A stretch of 64,000 nucleotides of DNA from NCBI GenBank assembly GCA_016291135.1, contig JAEFAE010000001.1:1-64000 (forward strand), read 5' to 3'. Within the stretch, counting starts at the first letter, position 1; every line of letters starts with the position of its first letter. The position numbers were made by a program, and so were the translations under genes. Positions 4,936 to 41,150 of this stretch are shown here, piece by piece. This DNA is from Bacteroidales bacterium. Its GTDB lineage: Bacteria > Bacteroidota > Bacteroidia > Bacteroidales > F082. The notes beneath the pieces were generated by a model. It was not told where the DNA came from, ran no database searches, and saw only the letters and a program-made list of their open reading frames with translations.

Positions 4936-6927
4936 ATGAACGCCTTCCAAAAAGAAATCCTCGCCGGCATTCCCGACGAACTGCCCGAAGTGAAGCCATA
5001 CGACCCCGACATCAACCACGCCCCCAAGCGCAAAGACATCCTGACCAAAGCCGAGAAGAAGCTCGCCATCCGTAATGCCTTACGCTACTTCCCCGAGAAG
5101 TGGCACGCCACGCTGGCCCCCGAGTTCGCCGAAGAGCTGGAGAAGTACGGACGCATCTACATGTACCGGTTCCGTCCGTCGTACAAGATGTATGCCCGCC
5201 CCATCGAGGAGTATCCCGCCAAATGCAAGCAGGCAGCGGCCATCATGCTGATGATCCAGAACAACCTCGACCCCGCCGTGGCACAACATCCCCATGAGCT
5301 GATCATCTACGGAGGCAATGGCGCCATCTTCCAAAACTGGGCCCAGTACCGTCTGGTGATGCAATACCTTGCCACCATGGACGAAGACCAGACCTTGGCC
5401 ATGTACAGCGGCCATCCGATGGGCCTCTTCCCCTCCCATAAAGACGCCCCGCGTGTGGTGGTCACCAACGGCATGATGATCCCGAACTACAGCAAACCCG
5501 ACGACTGGGAGCGTTACAACGCCCTCGGCGTGACGCAATACGGACAGATGACCGCCGGCTCCTATATGTATATCGGTCCCCAAGGCATCGTCCACGGCAC
5601 CACCATCACCGTGCTCAACGCCGCCCGTAAACACGGGGGTAGCACGGCAGGCAAGCTGTTCATCACCGCCGGCCTCGGCGGCATGAGCGGTGCCCAGCCC
5701 AAGGCCGGCAACATCGCCGGCGTGGTGAGCATCACTGCCGAGATCAACCCCGCCGCCACCCAAAAGCGTTATCAGCAAGGCTGGGTCGACGAGGTGCACG
5801 ACAACATCGAAGAGCTGTTCAAGCATGTCAACGAGAGTCTCGCCAAGAAGGAAGCCCGCAGCTATGCCTACCAAGGCAATGTGGTGGACCTTTGGGAATA
5901 TGCCGCCGAGCACGACCTCCACGTCGACCTCGGAAGCGACCAGACCTCGCTCCACAACCCGTGGGCAGGCGGTTACTATCCAGTGGGACAGTCGTTCGAG
6001 GAGTCGAAGACCATGATGGCCGAGAATCCCGAGCTGTTCAAGGAGAAGGTGCAGGCTTCGTTGCGCCGCCATGTGGCCGCCATCAACAAGCTCACCGCCA
6101 AAGGCATGTATTTCTTCGACTACGGCAACGCCTTTCTGTTGCAGTCGTCGCGTGCCGGCGCCGACATCCTCAAGGCCGACGGCACCTTCCGTTATCCCAG
6201 CTACGTGCAGGACATCATGGGCCCGATGTGCTTCGACTACGGCTTCGGCCCCTTCCGCTGGGTCTGCGCCTCGGGTAAGCCCGAAGACCTGGCCGTCACC
6301 GACGACATCGCCTGCAACGTCCTCGAAGAGATTGCCCGCACCGCACCTGTTGAAATTCAGCAGCAGATGCGCGACAACATCCAGTGGATCCGCGGCGCCC
6401 AAGCCAACCACCTCGTGGTGGGATCCCAGGCCCGCATCCTCTACGCCGACTGCGAAGGACGCACCAAGATCGCTGCCGAGTTCAACAAAGCCATCGCCGA
6501 CGGTCGCCTGAGCGGACCCGTCGTCCTCGGCCGCGACCACCACGACGTGTCCGGCACCGACTCGCCTTTCCGTGAGACTTCCAACATCTACGACGGCTCG
6601 CAATTTACCGCCGACATGGCTGTGCAGAACGTCATCGGCGACGGTTTCCGCGGCGCCACCTGGGTCTCGATCCACAATGGCGGTGGCGTAGGTTGGGGCG
6701 AAGTCATCAATGGCGGCTTCGGCATGGTCCTCGACGGCACGCCAGAGGCCGACCGTCGTCTCCACTGCATGCTCCACTGGGATGTCAACAACGGCATCGC
6801 CCGCCGCAACTGGGCCCGCAACGAAGGCGCCACCTTCGCCATCAAGCGTGCCATGGAAGCCGAGCCCAAGCTCAAGGTCACCCTCCCGAACCTCGTCAAG
6901 GACGAGCTGTTGGAGCATCTCTTTTAA
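4936..6927 (+). CDS. hutU: Urocanate hydratase (urocanase)
   Basis: Second enzyme of histidine degradation: converts urocanate to 4-imidazolone-5-propionate using tightly bound NAD+, in the cytoplasm. The 663 residues match the long form found in Bacteroidota and eukaryotes rather than the ~555-residue proteobacterial form. Visible signatures are ELIIYGGNGAIFQNWAQYRL near residue 126, the nucleotide-binding AGLGGMSGAQPKAGN near 247, and FDYGFGPFRWVCASG, whose Cys444 aligns with the conserved active-site cysteine region. No hutH, hutI or ftcD gene is visible in the window. mfd follows 14 bp downstream, probably co-transcribed. Confidence 0.95.
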   Translation: MNAFQKEILAGIPDELPEVKPYDPDINHAPKRKDILTKAEKKLAIRNALRYFPEKWHATLAPEFAEELEKYGRIYMYRFRPSYKMYARPIEEYPAKCKQAAAIMLMIQNNLDPAVAQHPHELIIYGGNGAIFQNWAQYRLVMQYLATMDEDQTLAMYSGHPMGLFPSHKDAPRVVVTNGMMIPNYSKPDDWERYNALGVTQYGQMTAGSYMYIGPQGIVHGTTITVLNAARKHGGSTAGKLFITAGLGGMSGAQPKAGNIAGVVSITAEINPAATQKRYQQGWVDEVHDNIEELFKHVNESLAKKEARSYAYQGNVVDLWEYAAEHDLHVDLGSDQTSLHNPWAGGYYPVGQSFEESKTMMAENPELFKEKVQASLRRHVAAINKLTAKGMYFFDYGNAFLLQSSRAGADILKADGTFRYPSYVQDIMGPMCFDYGFGPFRWVCASGKPEDLAVTDDIACNVLEEIARTAPVEIQQQMRDNIQWIRGAQANHLVVGSQARILYADCEGRTKIAAEFNKAIADGRLSGPVVLGRDHHDVSGTDSPFRETSNIYDGSQFTADMAVQNVIGDGFRGATWVSIHNGGGVGWGEVINGGFGMVLDGTPEADRRLHCMLHWDVNNGIARRNWARNEGATFAIKRAMEAEPKLKVTLPNLVKDELLEHLF

Positions 6928-17725: not shown

Positions 17726-17767
17726 TTCCTGCGCTGACAAAGGACTGAAAAAGTCCTGAAAAGCCCG

Positions 17768-17801
17768 AGTGGGGCGGCCGGTTGGCCGCCCCACTTTTTT
17801 T
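17768..17801 (+). terminator. Rho-independent terminator after the first giant gene
   Basis: The arms AGTGGGGCGGCC and GGCCGCCCCACT pair perfectly (12 bp) around a GGTT loop and are followed by a run of T. Confidence 0.92.
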
Positions 17802-17866: not shown

Positions 17867-17874
17867 TATATTTG
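17867..17874 (+). promoter_or_regulatory. -7 box TATATTTG for the pseudo-subtilase gene
   Basis: Perfect TAnnTTTG match 65 bp upstream of the ATG at 17940 and downstream of the preceding terminator. Confidence 0.65.
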
Positions 17875-17939: not shown

Positions 17940-20900
17940 ATGAAAAAAGCAATCGTCCTCTTTTTAGCCACCCTCTTCGCATTTGGAAGCGGCTATGCAC
18001 AAAACAAGCTGTCCGGTCAACTGACCCAAGCCCTCCAACAATCGGGTGCACAAGAAAAAATCGATGTCATCATCACCATGGCGGACCAATACGACGGGTC
18101 CAGCCTCGACGCCAGAACCAGTTTCCTGAACCGGAAGCAACGGACCGCGTTCGTCACACAAGAGCTAAAGAATTTCTCCGCCAACAGCCAAGCCGACCTG
18201 CTCACCTTGCTCAACGAAGCCAAGGGACAGGTCAGCGACATCCAATCGTTCTGGATCTTCAACGGGATTGCCTGCAAGGCCACCCCGACCATGATCCAAG
18301 CGATCGCCCAACGTCCCGACGTACGGGTGGTCGACTGGGATACGGAATGCCCCACCACAGGGCTCACGTTCACCGAAACGGAATCCGCACCCAGAACCAC
18401 CCTTGAATGGAACGTGGAACGCATCGAGGCCGACCAGGTGTGGACCTACAACGGAACCACGGGCTACACTGGCAACGGCGTGGTGGTGGCCATCCTCGAC
18501 TCGGGTGTCCACTTCTCCCACAACGACTTGAAAAACAGCATGTGGACCGCCACGGGCTTTGCCAACCATGGTTGGAACTACGTCAACGGAACCAACAACC
18601 CCAACGAGACCCAAAGCAACGGCAATGGCGTGGGTACCATGGTGGCCGGCATCGTCGCCGGACAAGGCACCTCAGGCCGCCAAACCGGCGTGGCTCCCGG
18701 CGCCAAAATCATGGCGGTCAAGATCGCTGGAAGTACCGGCAACGTCACCGAGACCCGTATCAACAACGGCCTTCAGTTCGCCATCGAACACGAAGCCGAC
18801 ATCGTCCTCGTCTCCGCCGTGGAATCAAATGTAGGCGCAAAGGCCTCCTACCGCGATAAGATGGTCAACCTGCTCAACCTCGGAGTCCCGGCTTTCACCG
18901 CCGCTGGCGACGACGGCACCATCGACGCTCCCAACAGCATCGGTGCCCCATCCAACTGCCCCTCGCCTTGGCACAACCCCGACGAGACCCTCAACCAGGG
19001 CCGTTCTGCCAACATCTGCGTAGGTGCCACCAACCGAAGCGAGTTGAAGGCTGGTTTCTCAAGCATCGGACCCGTGACCTGGGAAAGCGTGACGGGCTAT
19101 AACGACTATGCCCTCGCCGCCGGCGGTCACATCCGTCCCGACGTGATGGCACCCGGTGTCAACATCACCTCTACCAGCTACCTGGACAACAGCAGCTACC
19201 GCTCCGCCCAAGGTACCGCGCTGGCTGCCGCCCACGCCGCAGGCGTGGCCGCCCTGCTGCTGGAGGCAGACCCCAACCTCACCCCGGCCGACATCGACCG
19301 TCTGCTGGAGACCACCGCAGCCAAATGCGAAGGCCTCGTCACCAAGAACAACTTCTACGGCGCCGGCCGCATCAACGCCTACGACGCCATCACCGCCCTG
19401 CTGTCGACCGTCGCGGCCCCGACCAACCTGACCGCCACCGCCGATAACAACGAGGTCACCCTTACCTGGACCGCCGCCAGCGGTGCCGCCTCCTACAACA
19501 TCTACTGCAACGAGGAATGCATCGCCACCGGAGTCACCGGCACCACCTATACCTACCAGACCGACTTCAGCGGCGCCCACGCCTACTGCCTCCGCGCGGT
19601 GACTGCCAACGGCACCCTCTCACCGAAGTCGCTTTATGCATACGTCTTTATCGACCCCGCCGGCCCCATCGTCCGGAACCTCGCAGCCACCGTCAACAAC
19701 GACCAAAGTCAGGTGGCCCTAACCTGGGAGCTTCCCGAACAGACCAACACGCTGCGCTACGGCACCTCCGAAACGCCCAACGGCGCCTACGGCGGACAGA
19801 ACGGTAAACAAAGCTACTGGGCCCAACGTTATCCCAGCGCCATGCTGGTGGACTACGCGGGCACCCATCTCGACATGGTAAGTGTTTACTTCAACAAATA
19901 CAAGAACACCACCTATACCCTCACCCTCTATGACGGCGACGCCAACGGCCCCGACCAGCAACTCTTCACACAAAGCTTCACCGTCGCGCAGAGCGAGATC
20001 GGCGGATGGAAAGAAATCCCGCTGACGACGCCCATCGCGATCAACCACAACAAAGACCTGTGGATCGTCATGAGAGACCCCGTCGCCAACCCCAACAGCG
20101 CCAGCTCCGGGACCACCGCCAACCTCACCTACTGCACCATTCCCTACAACAGCACCGGCTTCCCGGCCTTGTTCAGCACGGACGGCATCAACTGGTCCAC
20201 CTACAACAATAACGACGCTTGGATGATGAAAGCCCATCTCACCACCGGCTCCTATACCTACAACGTCCAACGCGACGGCGTCAATGTGGCCACCAACAAG
20301 ACCACCCTCAGCCATACCGATACCAACGTCCCTGCCGGCGTGCATTACTATACCGTCACCACCAACTACAACAACGGGCAGAACGAATCCTTCCCCTGCG
20401 ACCCGGTACGCGCCAACGTGAACACCCACTTCACCGTGACCTTTGTCCCTGGCGACGGCACCTGTGAGGTAGAGACCATGACCCAAGGAGGCGGCACCGG
20501 CGCCATCACGCTGCCAACGGCCACGCCTTCGGCCCTCTGCCAAAGCGAAGGCTATACCTTTGCGGGCTGGTGCAGCGAGATTGTGGAAGGCACCCACACC
20601 CCACCCACCCTCTTCCCTGCCGGCTACGACTATATCCCCGATGACGACTGCACGCTCTATGCCGTGTACAAAGTGGTCCAAAGCGAATATGGCTGGAAGC
20701 AGGCACGCTCCTTGAGTGCAGGCGACCAGGTGTGCATTGTAAATCAAGCCAATAGCGTCGAGTTCGACGATCTGGAAGAGGGCAACTCCATGGCATCGAG
20801 CATCGGGTACGACACCGAGATCCTGGGCGAGCATCCCTTTACCGCCCATGCCCGTAACGGAGGCTATACCCTCACCGACGCCCAGGGCCGCTACCTCAAC

Positions 20901-23900
20901 AACCAGGAAGGCTACCTCCGGCTGAGCGCCACGTTCTACGCCGGTTGCGTGTGGACTGCTGAGTGCATCGGCGAAAACATCTACCTGCGCAATGGCAGCA
21001 ACGAAAACGCCTATCAGCTCATGGCCTACAACGATGGTGAGGCAATCCTCTTTGCCAGCGTGCCGGCCAACGACATCGACGATCCGGTCTATTCGCCAAT
21101 CCAGCTCTACCGCTTCAAGGGCAGCGAAGGCGTCTACTACGCCCACATCCCGGGTTGCGGCACCACTGTCAACGCCCCGATCTTCAACCCCGAAGCCGAC
21201 GGCATCTATATGGAGCCCCTCCAGGTAAGCCTCAGCTGCAACGCCCAAGGTGCCACCATCCATTACACCACCGACGGCAGCACCCCCACCGCCTCCAGTA
21301 CGACGTACGCCAACCCCATCACCGTCAACAGCACCGTCACTATCAAGGCCAAGGCCTTCAAGGACGGCATGACGGACAGCCCGGTAGCCCAACAGACCTA
21401 CCAGTTCCCCACGACGTATGCCAACATCGCTGACTTCAAGGATGCCGACGACCCGAACGAGATTGCCCGGATCACCAGCACGATGACGTTGGTGTATCAA
21501 TATGAACGGTACTACTACTTCAGCGACGACACCGGCGGCCTGCTGGTGTACGACGACTACCACGTAGTGAACGGCAGCTTCGCCCCTGGCGACCGCATCA
21601 ACCTGCTTCAGGGCCGTTACCGCCTCGACCATGGCCAGCCCATGCTCATCCCGCTGGCTCCCCTCACCAAGACGGGCACGGGTACGGTACCGGATCCGGC
21701 CCCCGTCACGGTCGAAGCGTTGGAAACCTACTATTATCCCATGGATGCCATGCTGGTACAGATTGAGGACGTGCTCTTCAGCCGTAGCTACAGTCTCGCC
21801 ACAGACGACACCCTCGATACGATCAGCTTTGTCCAAGACGGCCACAGCATGATGCTGCGCAACCGTTTCTACGCCTTGGAGGGCGACATCGACAACACTT
21901 ACCACTACGACGTCACCGGACTCCTTGGCGTCAAAGACGATGTCTACTACCTCTATCCCCGTGGCGACCAAGACATCCGCCAATACCACACCATCACCCT
22001 CGCCGAAACCCAACACGGCACCCTCCAAGCCGACCACGAACAGGCCTCCCACCTCAGCACCGTCACGCTTACCGTGACCCCCGAAGCCAACTACCACCTT
22101 GAGAGCCTGTACTACTATGGGTCCAACCCGAGCAACCATACCGACATCGAAGCACCCTACAGCTTCGAGATGCCCGACGAGAACATCACCGTGGTGGCCG
22201 TCTTTGCTGAAGACGTCACCTACACCGTGACCTTCAACGCCGGCAACGGCACCTGCGCCACCAGCAGCCTCGAAGAGACCGCCTGGAATGCCGGCGTTGT
22301 CCTACCCACCGCCGCCCCCTCGTCCGGCTGTGCCACCGAGGGCTACACCTTTGCAGGTTGGGCCGAGAGCTTCATCGAGGAGGCCCTGACCGCCCCTGAG
22401 CTGTTCGCCGCCGGCACCACCTACCATCCGACCGACAACGTCACCTTGTATGCGGTGTACACTGCCGCCAGCGGTACCGAATGGCAAGACGTCACCACCA
22501 CCCAAGACCTGCTTGAGGGTGAGTACATCATCTCGTCGCTCTTGACGGAGAACCAAAAGTACTATTACCTGGTACGCGAAGGAGCTGTCACCCAGAACCC
22601 GAAAGCCCGTAGAATCAACGGACTGCCTTCGGCTAGCTCGGAAGCCAAAAACAATGTGTGGACCGTCAAGAAGATCAGCAGCACGGAGTACTCCATCAGC
22701 TATACGGATGCCAACGACGTCACCTACTACCTGATCAACACAAACAACTATGCACAAGGCAACAGTGTGACCACCACCCCGCCCACCCGTGGTTGGACGT
22801 TCTCCAACAATGCCAACTACGGACTCGTGACCCAGTTCCGCAAAGCCACCACCCAGCGTTATCTCGACTTAAGCGGCGGCACCGGCGTCACCGCCTACTG
22901 GTATTCCCATTCCGTGAGCACTTCCGTCAATGAATACAAAGGCCAACTTCACCTCTTCCTGAAGCCCGCCAACGTGTACTCCACCAACCCGGCCTGCCAG
23001 ATGGCCGTGGCCACCCCGGAGTTTGTCGGCCTGCCCGAGGGCGACTACATCCTCACCGACAACTACATGGTGAACCTCACCTGCAGCACCGAGGGCGCCG
23101 TCATCCATTATACGGTGGATGGCAGCACACCCACGGAGAGCTCCCCGACGTTCAGCGCCCCGTTTGCCATCAACCAGACCTGCACCGTGAACGCCATCGC
23201 CTTCCTGGAGGGCGAGCCAAGCGCCATGGCCACGCATGCCTTCACCTTCCCGATGCAGTTCGAGAATATCGCCGCCTTCAAACAGGCCGGTAACGACGGA
23301 GTCATCACCACCAGCACTGTCGCTCGGATTGCCGGTGACGTGCAGTTTGTCTTCCGTCATGAAAACATGATCTACCTGGCTGACGAAAGCGCCGGTCTGC
23401 TGGTCCGCGACAACAACGGCATCATCACCAACACCTACAACGACGGCGACCTCATTCAAGGCGGCCTTGTGGGCACCTACCTCAATACCAGCCAACAGCC
23501 GATGATGATCCCCATCGCGAATCCTGCAGCGGGCATCGCCGGAAGCCCCGTCGAGCCGCTTGTGGCCACCGCCCTTGACATCAAGACTCAATACGACAAC
23601 TATGACGCCCGACTTGTGACCATCGTCGACGCTGAATTCGCCTCCGGCTACGACTTCAGCAACAACCCGGTCGCGCCCGCCAACGACCACGGCACCGCCA
23701 TCAACATCCGCAACCAGTTTGGCACGGTGACCCTCTCGGGTGAGGCAGGCGAGCATGACGACATCACCGGATTCGTCGGACAATACGTCGCTTCCAACAC
23801 CTATGTGGTAGGCATCTACCCGAGAAACAACGACGACTTCGTTCGTTACTATGACATCACCTGCGCCACCCTAGCGCAAGGAACCGTCAGCACGACGCCC

Positions 23901-25640
23901 GACCACGCCCGTGCCGGCGACCTGGTGACCTTGAACGCCCATCCCAATCCGGGTTATGAGATCGACCAATGGACCGTCACCGGCCCCAACGGCCAGTCCA
24001 TCACCGTCAGCGGCAACCAGTTTGAGATGCCTGCCGGTGAAGTCACCGTGAGCGCTACCTTCCAGCAGATCGACTACACCGTCACCGTAATTGCCGAACC
24101 CGCCGAAGGCGGCACTGTCAGCGAAGGCGGCATCTATCACTATGGTGAGACCATCCAGGTGACGGCCACCCCCAATCCGGGCTACAAGTTCTTCCGTTGG
24201 TATGTGAATGGTACCATCGACACCCCCAACGCTTCCACCGTGTACACCATCACCGAAAACACCGAACTCAAGGCCGTCTTTGAGGCCACCGAAGACCACT
24301 ACCTGATCCAGTTGGTAAGCAACGGCAACGGCACCGTCAGCGGTGAGGGCAACTACCTCTCCGGCACCACGATCACCGTGACGGCCACGCCCGATGAAGG
24401 ATCCACCTTCCTCAACTGGACGGAAAACGATGTGGTCGTCTCCTCCGAGGCAAGCTACACCTTCACCGTCACCCGGGCGCGGACCCTCTATGCCAACTTC
24501 GTGACGGGATCCGGCGATGCCGAGCAGGCCATCAGCCTGTCGTCTGGCTGGAACTGGTGGTCGAGCAGCCTCGAGATGGACGCCACGCTGGATGCGGCCC
24601 TGAAGGACGCCATCGCGGCGGAAAACACCACGGCGGTGATCAAGAACGTGGGCGGCAACACCATGCTGGAGAACGGTACCTGGTCGCCCGACATGGCCCT
24701 CAACAACGAGTCGATGTACATGATCCGTGTTGACAATGCCGTGACGGCGACGCTGACGGCGGCTCCTGCCGACCCGACCAACCACCCGATCACGCTGGCT
24801 TCGGGCTGGAACTGGATCGGATTCCCCACGGTCAACGCCATGACGCTGGACGAGGCCTTCGCGGGCATCACCCCGAACGAGGAAGACGTGATCAAGGGCA
24901 CGGCGGGACCGGCTACCTACACCACTCAGTACGGATGGAACGGTAGCCTCACGGGCCTGGAACCCGGCGTGGGTTACATGTACAAGAACAACGGCGATCC
25001 GATGACGCTGGTTTATCCTTCGACGTCGAAGGGGATGGTGCGTGTAGTGCCCATGGAGCGTTACTGGATGAGCGACACGCACCGCCATGCGACGACGCTG
25101 ACGATGCTGGCGACGCTTGACGCGAGCCGTTACACGATGACGGAAGGCAACTACGAGATCGGCGCCTTCGTGGGCGACGAGTGCCGTGGCAGCGCCCGCC
25201 TGCAGCGTGTGGGCAGCCAGTACATCGCCTACCTGTCGGTGAGCGGTGAAGAGGGCGAGACCGTACGGTTCAAGCTCTACGACGTGACGAACAACGTGGA
25301 GCAAGGCCTGGCCGAAGAGCAGGTGAGCTACGTTTCGAACGCCATCACCGGTACGACGCACGAGCCTGTGGTGCTGCACTTCCGCGGCACGACGGACGTG
25401 AACGAGCAGGCTTCCCAAGTGCGGGTGTTCCCCAACCCTGCCGACGACTGGATCACCATCGAATCCGAGGCCCTGCAGTCCGCCACCCTGTTCACCCTGA
25501 CTGGCCAGCAGTTGCTGCACGAGCCCATCCAAAGCGGGAGCGCCCGCCTCAACGTGAGTGCCCTCGCCCCGGGTCTCTACCTCCTCCAACTGAGGAGTGC
25601 CGATGGCAGCACGCTCACTCGGAAATTGGAAATCAAATAA
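17940..25640 (+). CDS. Giant secreted subtilisin-like (S8) protein with degenerate active site, T9SS type A sorting domain
   Basis: A 2566-residue secreted protein. Signal peptide 1-20 (GSGYAQ); propeptide-like domain ~25-135; S8 fold ~160-490. The Asp motif AILDSGV is intact (Asp187). The His motif reads GVGTMVAG instead of GHGTHVAG (His to Val231). The Ser motif reads GTALAAAH instead of GTSMAAPH (Ser to Ala427). The oxyanion AAGN reads AAGD (Asp324). It is therefore probably a pseudopeptidase. Further on come an Fn3 domain (~495-575), two Flg_new/InlB repeats (~830-911, ~1428-1506), two chitobiase-C-like domains (~1081-1157, ~1689-1771), each followed by an OB-like domain, three divergent InlB repeats (~1971-2190), the duplicated GWNW module (~2197-2361), a YEIGAFVGDECRGSARL domain and the sorting domain (~2488-2566). 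Codon use is more C-rich than in its giant neighbours. Confidence 0.92.
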   Translation: MKKAIVLFLATLFAFGSGYAQNKLSGQLTQALQQSGAQEKIDVIITMADQYDGSSLDARTSFLNRKQRTAFVTQELKNFSANSQADLLTLLNEAKGQVSDIQSFWIFNGIACKATPTMIQAIAQRPDVRVVDWDTECPTTGLTFTETESAPRTTLEWNVERIEADQVWTYNGTTGYTGNGVVVAILDSGVHFSHNDLKNSMWTATGFANHGWNYVNGTNNPNETQSNGNGVGTMVAGIVAGQGTSGRQTGVAPGAKIMAVKIAGSTGNVTETRINNGLQFAIEHEADIVLVSAVESNVGAKASYRDKMVNLLNLGVPAFTAAGDDGTIDAPNSIGAPSNCPSPWHNPDETLNQGRSANICVGATNRSELKAGFSSIGPVTWESVTGYNDYALAAGGHIRPDVMAPGVNITSTSYLDNSSYRSAQGTALAAAHAAGVAALLLEADPNLTPADIDRLLETTAAKCEGLVTKNNFYGAGRINAYDAITALLSTVAAPTNLTATADNNEVTLTWTAASGAASYNIYCNEECIATGVTGTTYTYQTDFSGAHAYCLRAVTANGTLSPKSLYAYVFIDPAGPIVRNLAATVNNDQSQVALTWELPEQTNTLRYGTSETPNGAYGGQNGKQSYWAQRYPSAMLVDYAGTHLDMVSVYFNKYKNTTYTLTLYDGDANGPDQQLFTQSFTVAQSEIGGWKEIPLTTPIAINHNKDLWIVMRDPVANPNSASSGTTANLTYCTIPYNSTGFPALFSTDGINWSTYNNNDAWMMKAHLTTGSYTYNVQRDGVNVATNKTTLSHTDTNVPAGVHYYTVTTNYNNGQNESFPCDPVRANVNTHFTVTFVPGDGTCEVETMTQGGGTGAITLPTATPSALCQSEGYTFAGWCSEIVEGTHTPPTLFPAGYDYIPDDDCTLYAVYKVVQSEYGWKQARSLSAGDQVCIVNQANSVEFDDLEEGNSMASSIGYDTEILGEHPFTAHARNGGYTLTDAQGRYLNNQEGYLRLSATFYAGCVWTAECIGENIYLRNGSNENAYQLMAYNDGEAILFASVPANDIDDPVYSPIQLYRFKGSEGVYYAHIPGCGTTVNAPIFNPEADGIYMEPLQVSLSCNAQGATIHYTTDGSTPTASSTTYANPITVNSTVTIKAKAFKDGMTDSPVAQQTYQFPTTYANIADFKDADDPNEIARITSTMTLVYQYERYYYFSDDTGGLLVYDDYHVVNGSFAPGDRINLLQGRYRLDHGQPMLIPLAPLTKTGTGTVPDPAPVTVEALETYYYPMDAMLVQIEDVLFSRSYSLATDDTLDTISFVQDGHSMMLRNRFYALEGDIDNTYHYDVTGLLGVKDDVYYLYPRGDQDIRQYHTITLAETQHGTLQADHEQASHLSTVTLTVTPEANYHLESLYYYGSNPSNHTDIEAPYSFEMPDENITVVAVFAEDVTYTVTFNAGNGTCATSSLEETAWNAGVVLPTAAPSSGCATEGYTFAGWAESFIEEALTAPELFAAGTTYHPTDNVTLYAVYTAASGTEWQDVTTTQDLLEGEYIISSLLTENQKYYYLVREGAVTQNPKARRINGLPSASSEAKNNVWTVKKISSTEYSISYTDANDVTYYLINTNNYAQGNSVTTTPPTRGWTFSNNANYGLVTQFRKATTQRYLDLSGGTGVTAYWYSHSVSTSVNEYKGQLHLFLKPANVYSTNPACQMAVATPEFVGLPEGDYILTDNYMVNLTCSTEGAVIHYTVDGSTPTESSPTFSAPFAINQTCTVNAIAFLEGEPSAMATHAFTFPMQFENIAAFKQAGNDGVITTSTVARIAGDVQFVFRHENMIYLADESAGLLVRDNNGIITNTYNDGDLIQGGLVGTYLNTSQQPMMIPIANPAAGIAGSPVEPLVATALDIKTQYDNYDARLVTIVDAEFASGYDFSNNPVAPANDHGTAINIRNQFGTVTLSGEAGEHDDITGFVGQYVASNTYVVGIYPRNNDDFVRYYDITCATLAQGTVSTTPDHARAGDLVTLNAHPNPGYEIDQWTVTGPNGQSITVSGNQFEMPAGEVTVSATFQQIDYTVTVIAEPAEGGTVSEGGIYHYGETIQVTATPNPGYKFFRWYVNGTIDTPNASTVYTITENTELKAVFEATEDHYLIQLVSNGNGTVSGEGNYLSGTTITVTATPDEGSTFLNWTENDVVVSSEASYTFTVTRARTLYANFVTGSGDAEQAISLSSGWNWWSSSLEMDATLDAALKDAIAAENTTAVIKNVGGNTMLENGTWSPDMALNNESMYMIRVDNAVTATLTAAPADPTNHPITLASGWNWIGFPTVNAMTLDEAFAGITPNEEDVIKGTAGPATYTTQYGWNGSLTGLEPGVGYMYKNNGDPMTLVYPSTSKGMVRVVPMERYWMSDTHRHATTLTMLATLDASRYTMTEGNYEIGAFVGDECRGSARLQRVGSQYIAYLSVSGEEGETVRFKLYDVTNNVEQGLAEEQVSYVSNAITGTTHEPVVLHFRGTTDVNEQASQVRVFPNPADDWITIESEALQSATLFTLTGQQLLHEPIQSGSARLNVSALAPGLYLLQLRSADGSTLTRKLEIK

Positions 25641-25711: not shown

Positions 25712-25765
25712 AAAAAGTCCGGCGGCGCCTTCCGAATTCGACGGAAGGCGCCGCCGGACTTTTTT
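25712..25765 (+). terminator. Rho-independent terminator after the pseudo-subtilase gene
   Basis: An 18-bp GC-rich perfect stem (25717-25734 with 25742-25759) extended by five A-T pairs, loop AATTCGA, then T-run. Exceptionally strong; the A-run on the other side makes it potentially bidirectional. Confidence 0.95.
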
Positions 25766-28800: not shown

Positions 28801-30842
28801 ATGTCTATAACGGCCAGAAAGAACTGGTGCCTACCACCAACCCGGCCGCAGGTGTCGCCGGCACCCCCGTCGAACCCACCGTGGTCACCGCTGCCGACGT
28901 CGTCGCCAACTATGCCGACTACGATGCCATGCTGGTCAAGATGGAAGGCGTGACCTTCGATGCAGACTATACGTTCAGCAACTCCGCCCGTTCCACGACC
29001 TTCACCCAGGACGAAACCAACTACACCGTCTACAGCCGCTTCAACAACCTGACCGTCACGGTTGAAGAAGGCCAAGAGGGTGACGTAACCGGTTTCATCG
29101 GTATCCACAACGACACCAAACAAATGTATCCTCGCAACAACGAAGACATCGAACTGGTCGAGATGCCGGTGGAGACCGTCATCATCAACGCCACGGCCAA
29201 CCCGGCCATCGGTGGTACCGTCGAAGGCGCTGACGAATATGAGGTGGGCGAAGAGGTCACGCTGATCGCCACCCCCGCTGAAGGCTATGTCTTCGTGAAC
29301 TGGACAGAAGGCGATGTTGAGGTCGGCACCGATGCCACCCTCACCTTCACCGCCGAAGTCGACAGAGACCTGGTCGCCAACTTCGAGGAAGGCACTCCTG
29401 TTGAACCCGAGACCTACATGATCACCGTCACCATCGATCCCGAAGATGCCGGTACCGTCACTGGCGCTGGTGAATACGAAGAAGGTGCTACCGTCACCTT
29501 GAACGCCACCGCCGCCGAAGGCTATGAGTTCTGGAAGTGGATGGAAGGCACCACCTTCGTGGGCAGCAACCCCATCCTCACCTTCACCGCCGAGGCCGAC
29601 AGAGACCTGATCGCCATGTTCAAGGAAACGACGCCTGAACCGGAAGTCTACACCATCACCGTTCTGGAGAACGAAAATGGTACGGTCACCGCTCCCGAGA
29701 GCGCTGAAGCCGGTGTCACCATCGATGTCACCGCTACGCCGAACGAAGGCTACATCCTCACTGGCCTGTACTACTACACCACTGACGAAGAAGAAACGAC
29801 CGAAATCGACCTCGAGGACATGAGCTTCGTGATGCCCGCCGCCAATGTCACCATCGGCGCCGAGTTCACCGAAGAGACGCCCGAACCGGAAGTCTACACC
29901 ATCACCGTTCTCGAAGTCACTGGCGGTACCGTCACGGCTCCTGCCACTGCTGAAGCCGGCGAGACCATCAACGTCACTGCCACTCCGGCTGTGCTCCATG
30001 CCCTTACCAGCCTGTACTACTACACCACGGATCCTGAAGACGTGACCGAGATCGACCTCGAGGCCATGAGCTTCGAAATGCCCGCCGCCAACGTCACTAT
30101 CGGTGCTGTGTTCACCTCCACCGCTGAACTGGGCGACGCCAACAACGACGATGAGGTCAACATCCTCGACGTCCTGGCCGTGTTGAACTACATCCTCGGC
30201 AAGAACCCGCAACCGTTCGACTTCGAACAGGCTGACATGGACGAAGACGGTGTCATCGACATCAGCGACGCCATGGCCATCAACGCCCTGATCCACGGCA
30301 TGAAGGCCAACTGCGGCGAAGAGATCGCCCTTTACGATGTGGTGGACGGCCAACTCATGATCGAAGCCCCCGTCGCCCTGGCCGGTTATCAGTTCCACCT
30401 GAGCGCCGAACCCGTCAGCAACGAACTGGCTGGCTTCAGCACCATGGGCAACTGGGTCAACGGTGAGTACATCCTCCTCGTCTTCAACCTCAACAGCGAC
30501 CACGAGGCCGGCCTCTACACGGTCCTCAACCTCGGCGACGCCCAAGTCAACAGCGTGGCACTCGCCACCATGACCGGCTGCAAGGTCATCGCCGAAAAGG
30601 GAACCCTGAGCGTCAACAGCCTCGAAGCCAACTTCAAGGTGTACCCGGTGCCTGCCACCACCACCGTCACGGTTGAAGGTGAAGGCATCAACTTCATCGA
30701 AGTCTACAATGTCATGGGACAACGCATCATGAGCGCCAACACCCAAGAGGTGAACGTCAGCGCCCTGAGCGCCGGCACCTACATGTTCCGCATCTACACG
30801 GACAACGGTGTGGCCAACAAGAACGTCGTCATCGTGAGATAA
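25896..30842 (+). CDS. Giant secreted dockerin-containing protein, T9SS type A sorting domain
   Basis: A 1648-residue secreted protein with a signal peptide ending near residue 23 (GNSFGQ). Residues 25-160 resemble the NYVMAAFMGDEV type domain also seen near the end of the preceding protein. Three divergent InlB repeats (~322-563), one Flg_new repeat (~565-648), a chitobiase-C-like domain (~814-893, YYTLDGSTPTAES), an OB-like domain (~895-1085) and four more divergent InlB repeats (~1088-1408) follow. A type I dockerin spans ~1411-1470 with two complete calcium loops, GDANNDDEVNILD and ADMDEDGVIDISD, each keeping Asp/Asn at positions 1, 3, 5, 9 and 12. A cohesin-like beta segment (LAGYQFHLSAEP) comes next, then the sorting domain (~1572-1648, VYPVPATTTVTV to NVVIVR). 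Function unknown; the dockerin implies a binding partner. Confidence 0.92.
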   Translation: MKNRFLLLLLLLCTFGLAGNSFGQGPADWTGPAAVPSYTDGSTMSLFVTPYIDGQPITSDNYVMAAFMGDEVCQIGPAWSAIVRPTGEGYYFSGNTFGYKTVNQSPTRNRCIFKLWDTEANAEAGTSTYEFTYNANEVIGTPTYPLVINFYTEEPVWEQVTDASTLAEGDVIAVTNVGLTKALGEQQSLSIDEDTEEEFYYRRAFDITAEGDGFTYDATGTWAVQEILVHFDSHSSTNPLLFASMGYLYSGAGLQSGYEIDNNYLWSITTNDDGTATLETQGSVSDKTIRCTTARFSCYGATDNNPVRIYRKVLPTPVVEYDVTATATPADGGSIQMDGAVFTGGTYEEGTELTLTAVPAEGYNFVSWTVNGTELTETIITIEVTEALTIVATFEEIPVVYYTLTYNVDPTEAGTIAVTPAAGEQGYEAGTTVTLTATPTDNTWIFDEWQNEVGEAVSAMNPYEFAINENTALVAKFHQEIPVVYYTLTVNVNPAEAGSYTVTPTPGDQGFEAGTEVTVTAVPADETWTFVKWRNAIDETLTTEAAYTFTIDANTTLFAEFEPVVVVEPHTVTLNPGSGTCTVDELTEAEGGAGVTLPTATPCDAAITAGYTFAGWAAAEVAETTTAPELFNGEYHPEADITLYAVYAMGEQTYTFKNGDNYLNWGSGNSLSLANQVSDNTCWNVTFNGNIAKISPITQEVEREIAWNNQTTGQRFAAYKHTSLYNNNGQMSANYGAITLFKDGVAVTSLAENDVVVLASETVKKELSTVGNYGTGADYEEVPEGLYPLTVGIEGEPATYNSNPSCEGPVVTQDPVISPNSGTITDPSVMVEITCPTEGAVIYYTLDGSTPTAESTVYTAAIEITETTTVSAIAIVEGGEPSNVVTATYTFPEIVEYPNIAAFKAAYDATSTEIASITGDVTFVFRSGRYMYVQDETAALLIYDNSTPVITNTYENGDVISGGITGTMNVYNGQKELVPTTNPAAGVAGTPVEPTVVTAADVVANYADYDAMLVKMEGVTFDADYTFSNSARSTTFTQDETNYTVYSRFNNLTVTVEEGQEGDVTGFIGIHNDTKQMYPRNNEDIELVEMPVETVIINATANPAIGGTVEGADEYEVGEEVTLIATPAEGYVFVNWTEGDVEVGTDATLTFTAEVDRDLVANFEEGTPVEPETYMITVTIDPEDAGTVTGAGEYEEGATVTLNATAAEGYEFWKWMEGTTFVGSNPILTFTAEADRDLIAMFKETTPEPEVYTITVLENENGTVTAPESAEAGVTIDVTATPNEGYILTGLYYYTTDEEETTEIDLEDMSFVMPAANVTIGAEFTEETPEPEVYTITVLEVTGGTVTAPATAEAGETINVTATPAVLHALTSLYYYTTDPEDVTEIDLEAMSFEMPAANVTIGAVFTSTAELGDANNDDEVNILDVLAVLNYILGKNPQPFDFEQADMDEDGVIDISDAMAINALIHGMKANCGEEIALYDVVDGQLMIEAPVALAGYQFHLSAEPVSNELAGFSTMGNWVNGEYILLVFNLNSDHEAGLYTVLNLGDAQVNSVALATMTGCKVIAEKGTLSVNSLEANFKVYPVPATTTVTVEGEGINFIEVYNVMGQRIMSANTQEVNVSALSAGTYMFRIYTDNGVANKNVVIVR

Positions 30843-37000: not shown

Positions 37001-40000
37001 ACATCTCTACCGACCAGGCTCCGCAGCTGCTTGCTACCGGTGTCGCTGAGGAAGAGTATGACGACAACAGCTGGGGCAGCGCCGCCGCTGGTGTCTACCA
37101 GTGGGGTGTCAGCGCCAACTATGCTGGCAACCGTGACGGTGAATCTGAAATCACCTGGTCCAACAAGATTGACAAGAACATGACCACCAACGTGGTTGTG
37201 AACGTCAGCACCAACAGCAACGATCCTGCAACGGGCGCCGTGGTCACCCTGACCAACACCAGCGAACCCGGTCTGGAACTTGCTTACAACACCACCCTCG
37301 ACGAAACCGGTACCTACACCTGGACCGACTTCCGCAAGGGCACCTACGACGTCACCGTCAACCTGGAAGGCTTCGATCCGCTGACCGCCACGGCCACGGT
37401 TTGGGAACCCACCACGCTGAGCTACGTCCTCAACGAAATCATCGCCAACATCGATGACCTCTACGTCTCCACCACAGGTTGGGCCATGTTCGGTGAAATC
37501 CCGAGCGTCGATCCTCCGGCGGGTGCTGTGACCGTCAAACTCACCCACGGTGACAACTGGGGCGACGGCTCTGGCTACCAGATGCTGCTTGATGCCGATG
37601 CCACCGCCTTTGGCGTTGAAATCCCCACCTCCGGTGCACTGACCTCTGGCTGCTCTGTCTCACCCACGCTCTACGACGTGTTTGAGTACAAAATCCCGGA
37701 GAACGCCGATCCTAACTGCAGCACGCAGAACATGGTGGTCAACAACACGGTGACCATCACCATCCCCGCCGGCGTTTATGACTGGTGCATCACCAACCCG
37801 ACTCCTGGCGACCGTATCTGGATCGCTTCCTCTCAAGGCAACGTCGGTGGTCGTCAAGACGACTACGTGTTCGAGGCTGGCAAGACCTACGAATTCGTTC
37901 TGAGCATGCAAGGCTCCAACGACGCTACGAACGTCACCATCACCGATGGTAACAAGAACGTCTACACCAATACCTTTGCCCCGATCCCGGCCGACGGTGC
38001 CAAAGACCTCGCCGATGTCGTGACCGTTGACAACGGTTATGTGGTGCTGCCTGCCAACAACCGCAAGGTTGAATACTACAACGTGAAACTCGACGGCATC
38101 ATGGAAGGCACGACGGAACTCCCGTTCTTCCAGCACAATGTTGAGAACCTGATCGAAGGCGAAACCTACACCACCTCCGTCCAGAAGGTGTACACCACGG
38201 GCGAAAGCGAATGGGCCAGCTTCGACTGGATCTACACTGCTTGCGACAACTACGCTGGTATGCCGAGCGAACCTACCGCTCAGTGGAGCGGCGAAGATGT
38301 CGTCCTCAACTGGGTGCTTCCTGGTGGTGGTGACGGCCCGACGCCTCCCACGCCTCCGACGGGTGACGACAACTTCTCATTCGACTTCGAAAGCGGTTTG
38401 AGCGGCTGGCTCACCATCGATGCTGACGGCAATGGCCTCAACTGGTATCACAGCAGCAACTCAACTACCCAATCCGGTTACGACTACACGGGCCTCGGCC
38501 ACAATGGCTCGAATGGCTTCATCATCTCACAGTCCTTCATCGACTATGACGGCGCCTACCAGGCCGACAACTACATTTACACGCCTCAGATGTACGACAT
38601 CACCAACGGTTCTCACCTGAGCTTCTGGGCCGACTACGCCAACGACAGCTATCCTGACCACTTCGGCGTATGCATCGCCACCGTTGCCAACCCGACCGCC
38701 AATGACTTCACGATGGTTTGGGAAGGCACCGCCAAGAGCGGCAACACCGAAAAGGCAGCCTTGCGTCACAGCAACTCGCGTTATGAGAACTGGCGTCAAC
38801 ACACCGTCGACCTCAGCGCCTACGCTGGCCAAACCGTGTGGATCGCCTTCCGTCACAACGACTATGACATGTATGAGATCTGGATTGACGACGTTAACTT
38901 GACTGCTGGCAGCAAGGGCAACCGTTCCACCAGCTATGACTTTGAATCTGGCCTGAGCGGCTGGACCACCATCGACGCTGATGGCAATGGCCTCAACTGG
39001 TACCACAGCAGCAACTCGACTTCACAGTCCGGTTACGACTACACGGGCCTCGGCCACAATGGCTCGAATGGCTTCGCCATCTCACAGTCCTTCATCGACT
39101 ATGACGGTGCTTACCAAGCCGACAACTACCTCGTCAGCCCCACCATGTTCGCCCTGCAAAACGGTTCGAACATCACCTTCTGGGCCGACTATGCCAATGA
39201 CAGCTATCCTGACAACTTCGGTGTCTACGTCTCCACCGCTGCCACCCCGACGGCTAGCAGCTTCACCATGGTGTGGCAAGGCACTGCCAAGGGAGCAGGC
39301 GAAAAGACCGCTGTCCGCCACAACGGCACGCGTTATGAGAACTGGCGTCAACACACCGTCGACCTCAGCGCCTACGCTGGCCAAACCGTGTGGATCGCCT
39401 TCCGTCACAACGACTATGACATGTACGAGATCTGGATCGACGATGTGACCATCAACGCCGAAGGTGGCGATGTCCCGCCGGTTGATCCCGATGATCCGCC
39501 GACTCCGGCTGCCGACGTGATCGGTGTTGAAATCTTCCGCGACGGTGAATGGATCGCTGAAGTCCTGGCTCCTGCCACGACCTACACCGACCTCGCTGTT
39601 GAAAACGCTGAAGAATACACCTTCCGCGTCGTGTACGACGGCGACCAAGCCGACTACATGTACTATCGTATGTCCTGCCCGCAGACCTGCGCTGTGGCAG
39701 AAGATCCTTGCAAGGCTCCGAAGAACCTCGCTGGCGTCTACCAATGGAATGCTGCCAACAACTTTGGCGCCCTCATTACCTGGAACTACGGCGACTTCGG
39801 CGCATGGCTGATGTACGACGACGGTGTGACGGGTCACTTCGTGGGTGAGAACACGGATGCCATGTCATTCGAATGGGCCAACAAGTATCACGCTGCCGAT
39901 CTGGCTGCCTATGCCGGAACCGCACTGACCAAGGTCTCGTTCGTTGGCTACGACGGTAGCAACCCGCAAAACGGCATCTACACCATCAGAATCTATGAAG

Positions 40001-40980: not shown

Positions 40981-41150
40981 ACTCCGCGGCTCGGAATTCA
41001 GTGATCGACATGTTAGGTCACATCCTCGTTTGCCGTGAAGTCCATGCCGACTCCCGGATCCTGTCCTCTGACTTCCTCACCAGCGGCGTGTATGTCCTCC
41101 GCCTCAGCAACGGCGAGAACGTCAAGACACAGAAAATCGTCATTGACTGA
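40981..41150 (+). pseudogene. Orphan remnant of a T9SS type A sorting domain
   Basis: An open frame of about 55 codons ends at the TGA 41148-41150. It reads SVIDMLGHILVC, then SSDFLTSGVYVLRLSNGENV and KTQKIVID, which is the second half of a type A sorting domain (compare MSALGQVLY, AGLYLVRI and VKRVTLVK in the preceding protein). There is no signal peptide, no promoter and no upstream passenger; the frame begins directly after the preceding terminator. Most simply this is the 3' end of a deleted T9SS gene. Confidence 0.75.

Follow-up and report, generated by a model that had tools for sequence, protein, structure and literature searches.

A giant T9SS-type protein of Bacteroidales carries a maintained subtilisin-fold domain that has lost its catalytic residues

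The locus described here raises the question of what an S8 peptidase domain is kept for when the residues that make it a peptidase have gone. The gene in question lies in the window (the whole stretch of DNA that was analysed, 64,000 nucleotides) as an open reading frame of 2566 codons that starts with ATG. The first-pass annotation, made from the letters alone, had described a secreted subtilisin fold with three of four catalytic positions lost in an intact frame, and had taken it for a selected pseudopeptidase used as a binding scaffold on the cell surface. The frame is indeed intact, and its product is laid out as follows:

17940..25640, + strand: whole gene of the T9SS-type S8 pseudopeptidase, 2566 aa (open reading frame list and translation)
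17940..18002, + strand: putative signal peptide, about residues 1-21 (by eye from the translation)
18069..18347, + strand: Inhibitor_I9-type propeptide, residues 44-136 (22.3 bits, cut-off 21.2, E 2.1e-4)
18471..19367, + strand: Peptidase_S8 domain, residues 178-476, catalytic residues lost (Pfam, match to PDB sequences, model)
21198..21389, + strand: first of two CHB_HEX_C_1 / Fn3_assoc domains, residues 1087-1150 (Pfam-type match)
22221..22457, + strand: Flg_new (Listeria-Bacteroides repeat), residues 1428-1506 (profile match)
23061..23216, + strand: second CHB_HEX_C_1, residues ~1708-1759 (profile match)
23850..24503, + strand: divergent InlB B-repeats (Flg_new_2), between residues ~1971 and 2188 (profile match)
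25425..25637, + strand: T9SS type A C-terminal sorting domain (TIGR04183 / PF18962), residues ~2496-2566 (profile match)

The Pfam match to Peptidase_S8 covers profile positions 1-288 of 288 at 142.7 bits (cut-off 21.8, E 1.9e-41), and sequence and predicted fold both place the protein in the S8 family as a homologue. The Inhibitor_I9 propeptide, which passes its cut-off narrowly, stands ahead of this domain as in a pro-subtilisin. No Pfam match above cut-off was found in residues ~490-860, which follow the S8 domain. The protein further contains DUF5689-like stretches below cut-off, two chitobiase-C-terminal-like domains and another divergent InlB B-repeat (Flg_new_2) at residues ~1350-1420, with four such repeat stretches in all.

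The catalytic positions read as follows:

18498..18500, + strand: Asp187 (GAC), the catalytic Asp, kept (alignment, codon read)
18630..18632, + strand: Val231 (GTG) in place of the catalytic His (alignments, codon read)
18909..18911, + strand: Asp324 (GAC) in place of the oxyanion Asn (alignments, codon read)
19218..19220, + strand: Ala427 (GCG) in place of the catalytic Ser (alignments, codon read)

Asp187 is the sole remainder of the Asp-His-Ser triad and oxyanion Asn of an active S8 peptidase; the second His of the HGTH motif is also replaced (Met234), as is the Pro of the GTSMAxP motif (Ala431). When the protein is compared with PDB sequences by phmmer, GTALAAAH pairs with GTSMASPH of subtilisin and the His-motif stretches pair likewise. 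In MAFFT alignments residues 187, 231, 324 and 427 sit on the D, H, N and S columns, which in a 54-row alignment (51 rows being S8 domains from viral contigs) are invariant for D and nearly invariant for H, N and S. Chance or misalignment of the motifs is rejected as an explanation, because phmmer and MAFFT agree on these columns. The loss of triad and oxyanion residues with Asp187 kept, as first annotated, is thus confirmed by the codons, the Pfam match and both kinds of alignment.

A first structure model, from a three-sequence alignment, reached a pLDDT of 39.7, and S8 domains from viral contigs (51 of 133 candidate stretches) were added for this reason. The model of residues 25-490 obtained from the resulting 54 sequences has a mean pLDDT of 83.1 and a pTM of 0.75, with 23 of 34 ten-residue blocks at 90 or above from residue 155 on, its alignment consisting mostly of intact S8 domains, which favours an S8 fold. 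Against subtilisin BPN' entries, Foldseek gives a TM score of 0.91 by target and 0.55 by query at an rmsd of 2.3 Å. The top E-values belong to the pro-subtilisins 3afg and 3whi; the rmsd over both domains is 16-17 Å, which leaves the predicted docking of the propeptide unsettled. The structure prediction that the first-pass annotation had named as a check thus recovers the S8 fold, and its description of a dead S8 domain with the fold kept agrees with the full-profile Pfam match, the model and Foldseek.

S8 homologues retrieved from the window genome and from related Bacteroidales form an alignment of 168 rows. In 156 of them D/H/N/S is present; ten are incomplete through gaps, with 0 substitutions (some being pieces of one gene), and two are dead, namely this protein (D/V/D/A) and its orthologue in a second genome (D/Q/E/A). 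Because 156 of the 158 rows covering all four positions have D/H/N/S and only this protein and its orthologue differ, the dead positions do not reflect chance. An earlier alignment of 148 rows contained 137 with D/H/N/S, nine incomplete and the same two dead. The rows are the loci retrieved, the weak matches of the 40-genome search being mostly left out, and rows contained in others were removed before counting, as were duplicate rows of the window gene and the orthologue (L039 and the stretch of genome G004 that holds the orthologue are one record of identical sequence). Matches were obtained in 30 of 40 related genomes at E 1e-3, in 65 of 99 genomes of the genus at E 1e-95, in 67 of 173 genomes of the family at E 1e-95 (best 9 candidates per genome) and, with the orthologue as query, in 18 of 393 genomes of the order at E 1e-90 (best 4 candidates per genome); these genome sets overlap. 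Two scans of viral contigs for relatives with protein alignments found none, and 110 plasmid records had matches, all below 60% identity among the matches listed. Separately, one S8 homologue (L112 / L076, G018:C14:19139-20521) occupies a 3479-aa frame interrupted by one in-frame TGA, and the usual catalytic motifs occur in both of its pieces.

The orthologue lies in record JAEEON010000017.1 of the MAG Bacteroidales bacterium Tb.RUG.288, in which "RUG" presumably stands for rumen genome. Over a stretch of 460 codons that includes the S8 domain it is 55.9% identical to the window protein; it has an open frame of 2569 aa, and its contig keeps the same order of genes: the gene found at 4936-6927 in the window, mfd (which we name from its sequence), the 2351-aa gene, the giant S8 gene, the 1648-aa gene and the start of the 3273-aa gene. 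A lone mutated copy, which the first-pass annotation had named as something that would refute its reading, is therefore rejected, the syntenic orthologue being dead too. Of the three replacements whose conservation it had asked about, Ala is shared, and Val and Asp are not, the orthologue having Gln and Glu there. With catalytic residues replaced in two species, the giant S8 protein is almost certainly a pseudopeptidase.

The two dead rows are joined in the tree at SH-aLRT 100. Next nearest are intact S8 rows of genomes G022, G087 and G095, at an SH-aLRT of 35, which is not significant and comes with a long-branch warning. The intact S8 gene of G022 adjoins mfd, but upstream of it, whereas the giant S8 gene lies downstream of mfd at this locus. 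Because of these nearest rows and the place of the G022 gene beside mfd, the ancestral S8 at this locus may have been intact. The simplest reading of the sequences would be that catalysis was lost from an intact ancestor before the split of the two species; two separate losses are possible. The neighbouring gene P0002 is matched, at E 1e-30, in at least 2 of the 99 genomes of the genus (best 3 candidates per genome), and the island of giant genes is accordingly known from one species pair.

Selection has very probably maintained the dead domain, to judge from codon substitutions. Over residues 178-476 dN is 0.362 and dS 1.53, and over a longer stretch of 460 codons they are 0.379 and 1.73; dN/dS is ~0.2 in the S8 part, a ratio that is only rough, since dS approaches saturation at 1.5-1.7. 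In a neutral simulation at d=1.5 the S8 part gathers a mean of 12 stops (minimum 4, 200 runs) and falls to 10.8% identity, and the whole gene gathers 108 stops; both real frames are open. A pseudogene is rejected on these grounds, as the first-pass annotation had argued when it set aside a decaying gene, and by its sequence the domain is a maintained S8 pseudopeptidase. Both dead proteins keep 40 of the 50 positions that are at least 99% conserved in 148 active rows; the three lost catalytic positions are all among those changed in both (231, 324, 349, 353, 397, 427 and 431). At the 107 positions that are at least 90% conserved in 129 active rows, 72 residues are kept in both dead proteins and 81 in each, the median active row keeping 105; at nine positions the two share a new residue (including Met234, Ala427, Ala431 and His397), and at eight their new residues differ. 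Both counts use rows longer than 400 residues and exclude the distant loci L007, L008, L032-L038 and L080.

The window genome has a SprA match of 2483 bits (cut-off 200) and 116 Por_Secre_tail sorting-domain matches. With its C-terminal sorting domain, the giant S8 protein has the make-up of a T9SS type A cargo in a genome with T9SS, SprA being the component of the machinery that was searched for. It is probably exported by this system to the cell surface, so that the location first proposed is a probable one; release into the medium is possible. The following signals flank the gene:

17767..17796, + strand: intrinsic-terminator-like hairpin with T run, between the upstream giant gene and the giant S8 gene (13 pairs, -29.4 kcal/mol, z -5.5)
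17867..17874, + strand: TATATTTG, like a Bacteroidota -7 element (by eye)
25715..25761, + strand (scored on both strands): strong terminator-like hairpin after the gene (hairpin scan)

The box in front of the gene resembles the Bacteroidota -7 consensus, TAnnTTTG; a promoter scan ahead of the gene, which models sigma-70 only, found none. Because two strong terminator-like hairpins flank the gene and this box precedes it, the gene is probably its own transcription unit.

The window holds four giant T9SS-type genes at 10670-40875 (2351, 2566, 1648 and 3273 aa) beside mfd, a fast-evolving surface island whose first three members show 36-54% protein identity to the sister species (mfd 88.6%). The 1648-aa protein carries, besides a T9SS sorting domain, a Dockerin type I domain at 30129-30287 (residues 1412-1464; 38.8 bits, cut-off 22.9). 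Within the 3273-aa gene, 38383-39446 consists of tandem near-duplicate units with 83-91% DNA identity and a spacing of 552-555, which are a recent internal duplication and are probably choice-of-anchor-J domains. Directly after this gene, a 67-aa frame contains a piece of a T9SS sorting domain (40998-41144), perhaps the remnant of a lost gene. At the contig start, the open reading frame 67-1317 is 33% identical over 431 residues to the repeat-rich part of the orthologue in Tb.RUG.288, and may be the end of a further giant surface gene, truncated by the edge of the contig.

S8 pseudopeptidases are already known as a class, in which CspC/CspA and PIMMS2 are included. CspC of Clostridioides difficile keeps D105, its His and Ser are replaced by T170 and G485, its propeptide is not self-processed, and it is the proposed germinant sensor, a spore protein with a jelly-roll insert; the dead state of Csp proteins is limited to a subset of relatives, others being intact (PMC6636752). 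CspC and CspA are like the giant S8 protein in having an S8 fold with a propeptide, and CspC also in its kept Asp and lost His and Ser; they differ from it in being spore proteins with a jelly-roll insert that are not of T9SS type and have no giant stalk (PMC6636752). A CspC-like insert (~130 residues) is absent from the giant S8 domain, in which the match of 299 residues to 288 profile positions leaves no domain-size insert. Propeptide retention is shown for CspC and predicted here, and CspC provides the precedent for a dead S8 domain that has a working non-catalytic role (PMC6636752).

PIMMS2 of Plasmodium is a putative subtilisin-like pseudoenzyme with a signal peptide and degenerate HGT/GTS motifs, and as in the giant S8 protein the residues at the lost positions vary among orthologues; unlike it, PIMMS2 is a eukaryotic parasite protein with a transmembrane domain (PMC5520436). 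PIMMS2 of P. berghei retains D/H/S, and changing these residues lowers its function without abolishing it (same source). SpBcA, SpBcB and SpBcC of Bergeyella cardium are putative T9SS cargo with an S8 domain, and with a propeptide in A and B, but their active centre is conserved in all three, and A and B are active; SpBcC is reportedly inactive in vitro despite its conserved centre, and hence is not the same thing (PMC11982257). A survey of 91 genomes counted 42 putative inactive homologues among 966 proteins from five families of serine proteases, and the present architecture is not among its proteins in the part of the survey covered (PMC2605481). Streptococcal C5a peptidase, an active S8 surface enzyme, mediates adhesion to human cells (PMC5555575). 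The intact S8 proteins of G022 (1283 aa) and G087 (1276 aa) are 47% identical in the S8 domain, with similarity over residues 1-824, and differ in having D/H/N/S intact and about half the length. Among the literature matches listed, neither a T9SS-displayed S8 pseudopeptidase nor a dead S8 domain that keeps its propeptide within a T9SS-type protein of 2566 aa was found.

The reading preferred here, with a probability of roughly 0.6, is that of a T9SS-exported S8 pseudopeptidase, probably held at the surface, that acts as a non-catalytic binding head. The dead domain, predicted to fold like pro-subtilisin, would be unable to cut itself, and for that reason its propeptide should stay attached, as in CspC. 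This head, borne by a stalk of ~2000 residues in which InlB repeats, chitobiase-like domains and others occur, would hold its ligand (a peptide, a protein or a protease inhibitor) and leave it uncut. A binding role is slightly favoured over a purely structural one. A bolder version, in which a zymogen has become a permanent surface receptor and the locked pro-S8, as the head of a giant adhesin, binds ligands or sequesters inhibitors in one species pair and within a fast-evolving surface island, is offered only tentatively. Counting against a binding head are the differing residues at the lost positions, the faster divergence and the finding in two species only.

The first two of these points would suit a structural leftover, a spacer without a ligand whose S8 fold has been kept for no other reason than that it must fold if the giant protein is to be exported. 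Between the two species protein identity is 88.6% for mfd and 95.3% for the gene before it, and 47.9% for the giant S8 gene, 54.0% for P0002 and 36.3% for P0003, so that the whole surface island is fast. In the same two genomes, the intact S8 pairs that match best reach identities of 84.1, 69.7, 65.6 and 63.2%, as against 55.9% for the dead pair; these are best matches and not established orthologues, the last two sharing one partner in Tb.RUG.288. By this measure constraint on the dead domain is looser than on the intact enzymes, and the lost sites carry different residues in the two proteins. A mere spacer, however, would not be expected to be better conserved than its surroundings, and the S8 part (178-476, 57.5%) and the propeptide (25-150, 54.1%) exceed residues 860-2250 (44.9%). 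A leftover is regarded as unlikely.

A decoy or inhibitor sink is a less probable explanation. The dead domain would then bind protease inhibitors of the host, of protozoa or of competing bacteria, or shield shared substrates, and thereby spare the active S8 enzymes of the cell. Such enzymes are at hand: the window genome, an assembly 83% complete in 60 contigs, has eight PF00082 matches, of which the seven besides the giant S8 gene all show His and Ser motifs in a motif scan; one of these seven is 47% identical, and the dead protein keeps its fold and propeptide. Residues of the catalytic site, on the other hand, differ between the dead proteins (Val/Gln, Asp/Glu), and a propeptide that the domain does not cut off itself would obstruct the cleft, unless a second protease took it away.

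A cryptic enzyme, with some remaining activity, hydrolytic or of another kind, that comes from a different His or Ser or from paired carboxylates (Asp187 with Asp324/Glu), is very improbable. Sequence comparison, the level at which a substitute His or Ser in the cleft was sought, offers it the kept Asp187, an acidic residue at 324 in both dead proteins (Asp or Glu) and a new His common to both (His397); yet the nucleophile position is Ala in both, with no Ser, Thr or Cys there, and both His of HGTH are absent from both. We know of no S8 enzyme that works by such a carboxylate-pair or substitute-residue site. A recent accident or an error of sequencing or assembly in one MAG, for which the incomplete window assembly (83%, 60 contigs) and the MAG origin of the orthologue record might speak, can be dismissed: the site is dead in another record too, which has a frame of 2569 codons and the same synteny, and three positions have changed while the frame stays open.

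The loss of catalysis bears on how such genes are to be counted. A family search alone labels the giant S8 protein an S8 protease, and it should not be counted as one. Genomes of these gut Bacteroidales carry several intact S8 copies, and the present case indicates that their secreted S8 enzymes can lose catalysis and yet be kept by selection in a surface-type protein. Should the dead domain prove to bind a ligand, that ligand would offer a way to learn what these bacteria adhere to or protect themselves against.
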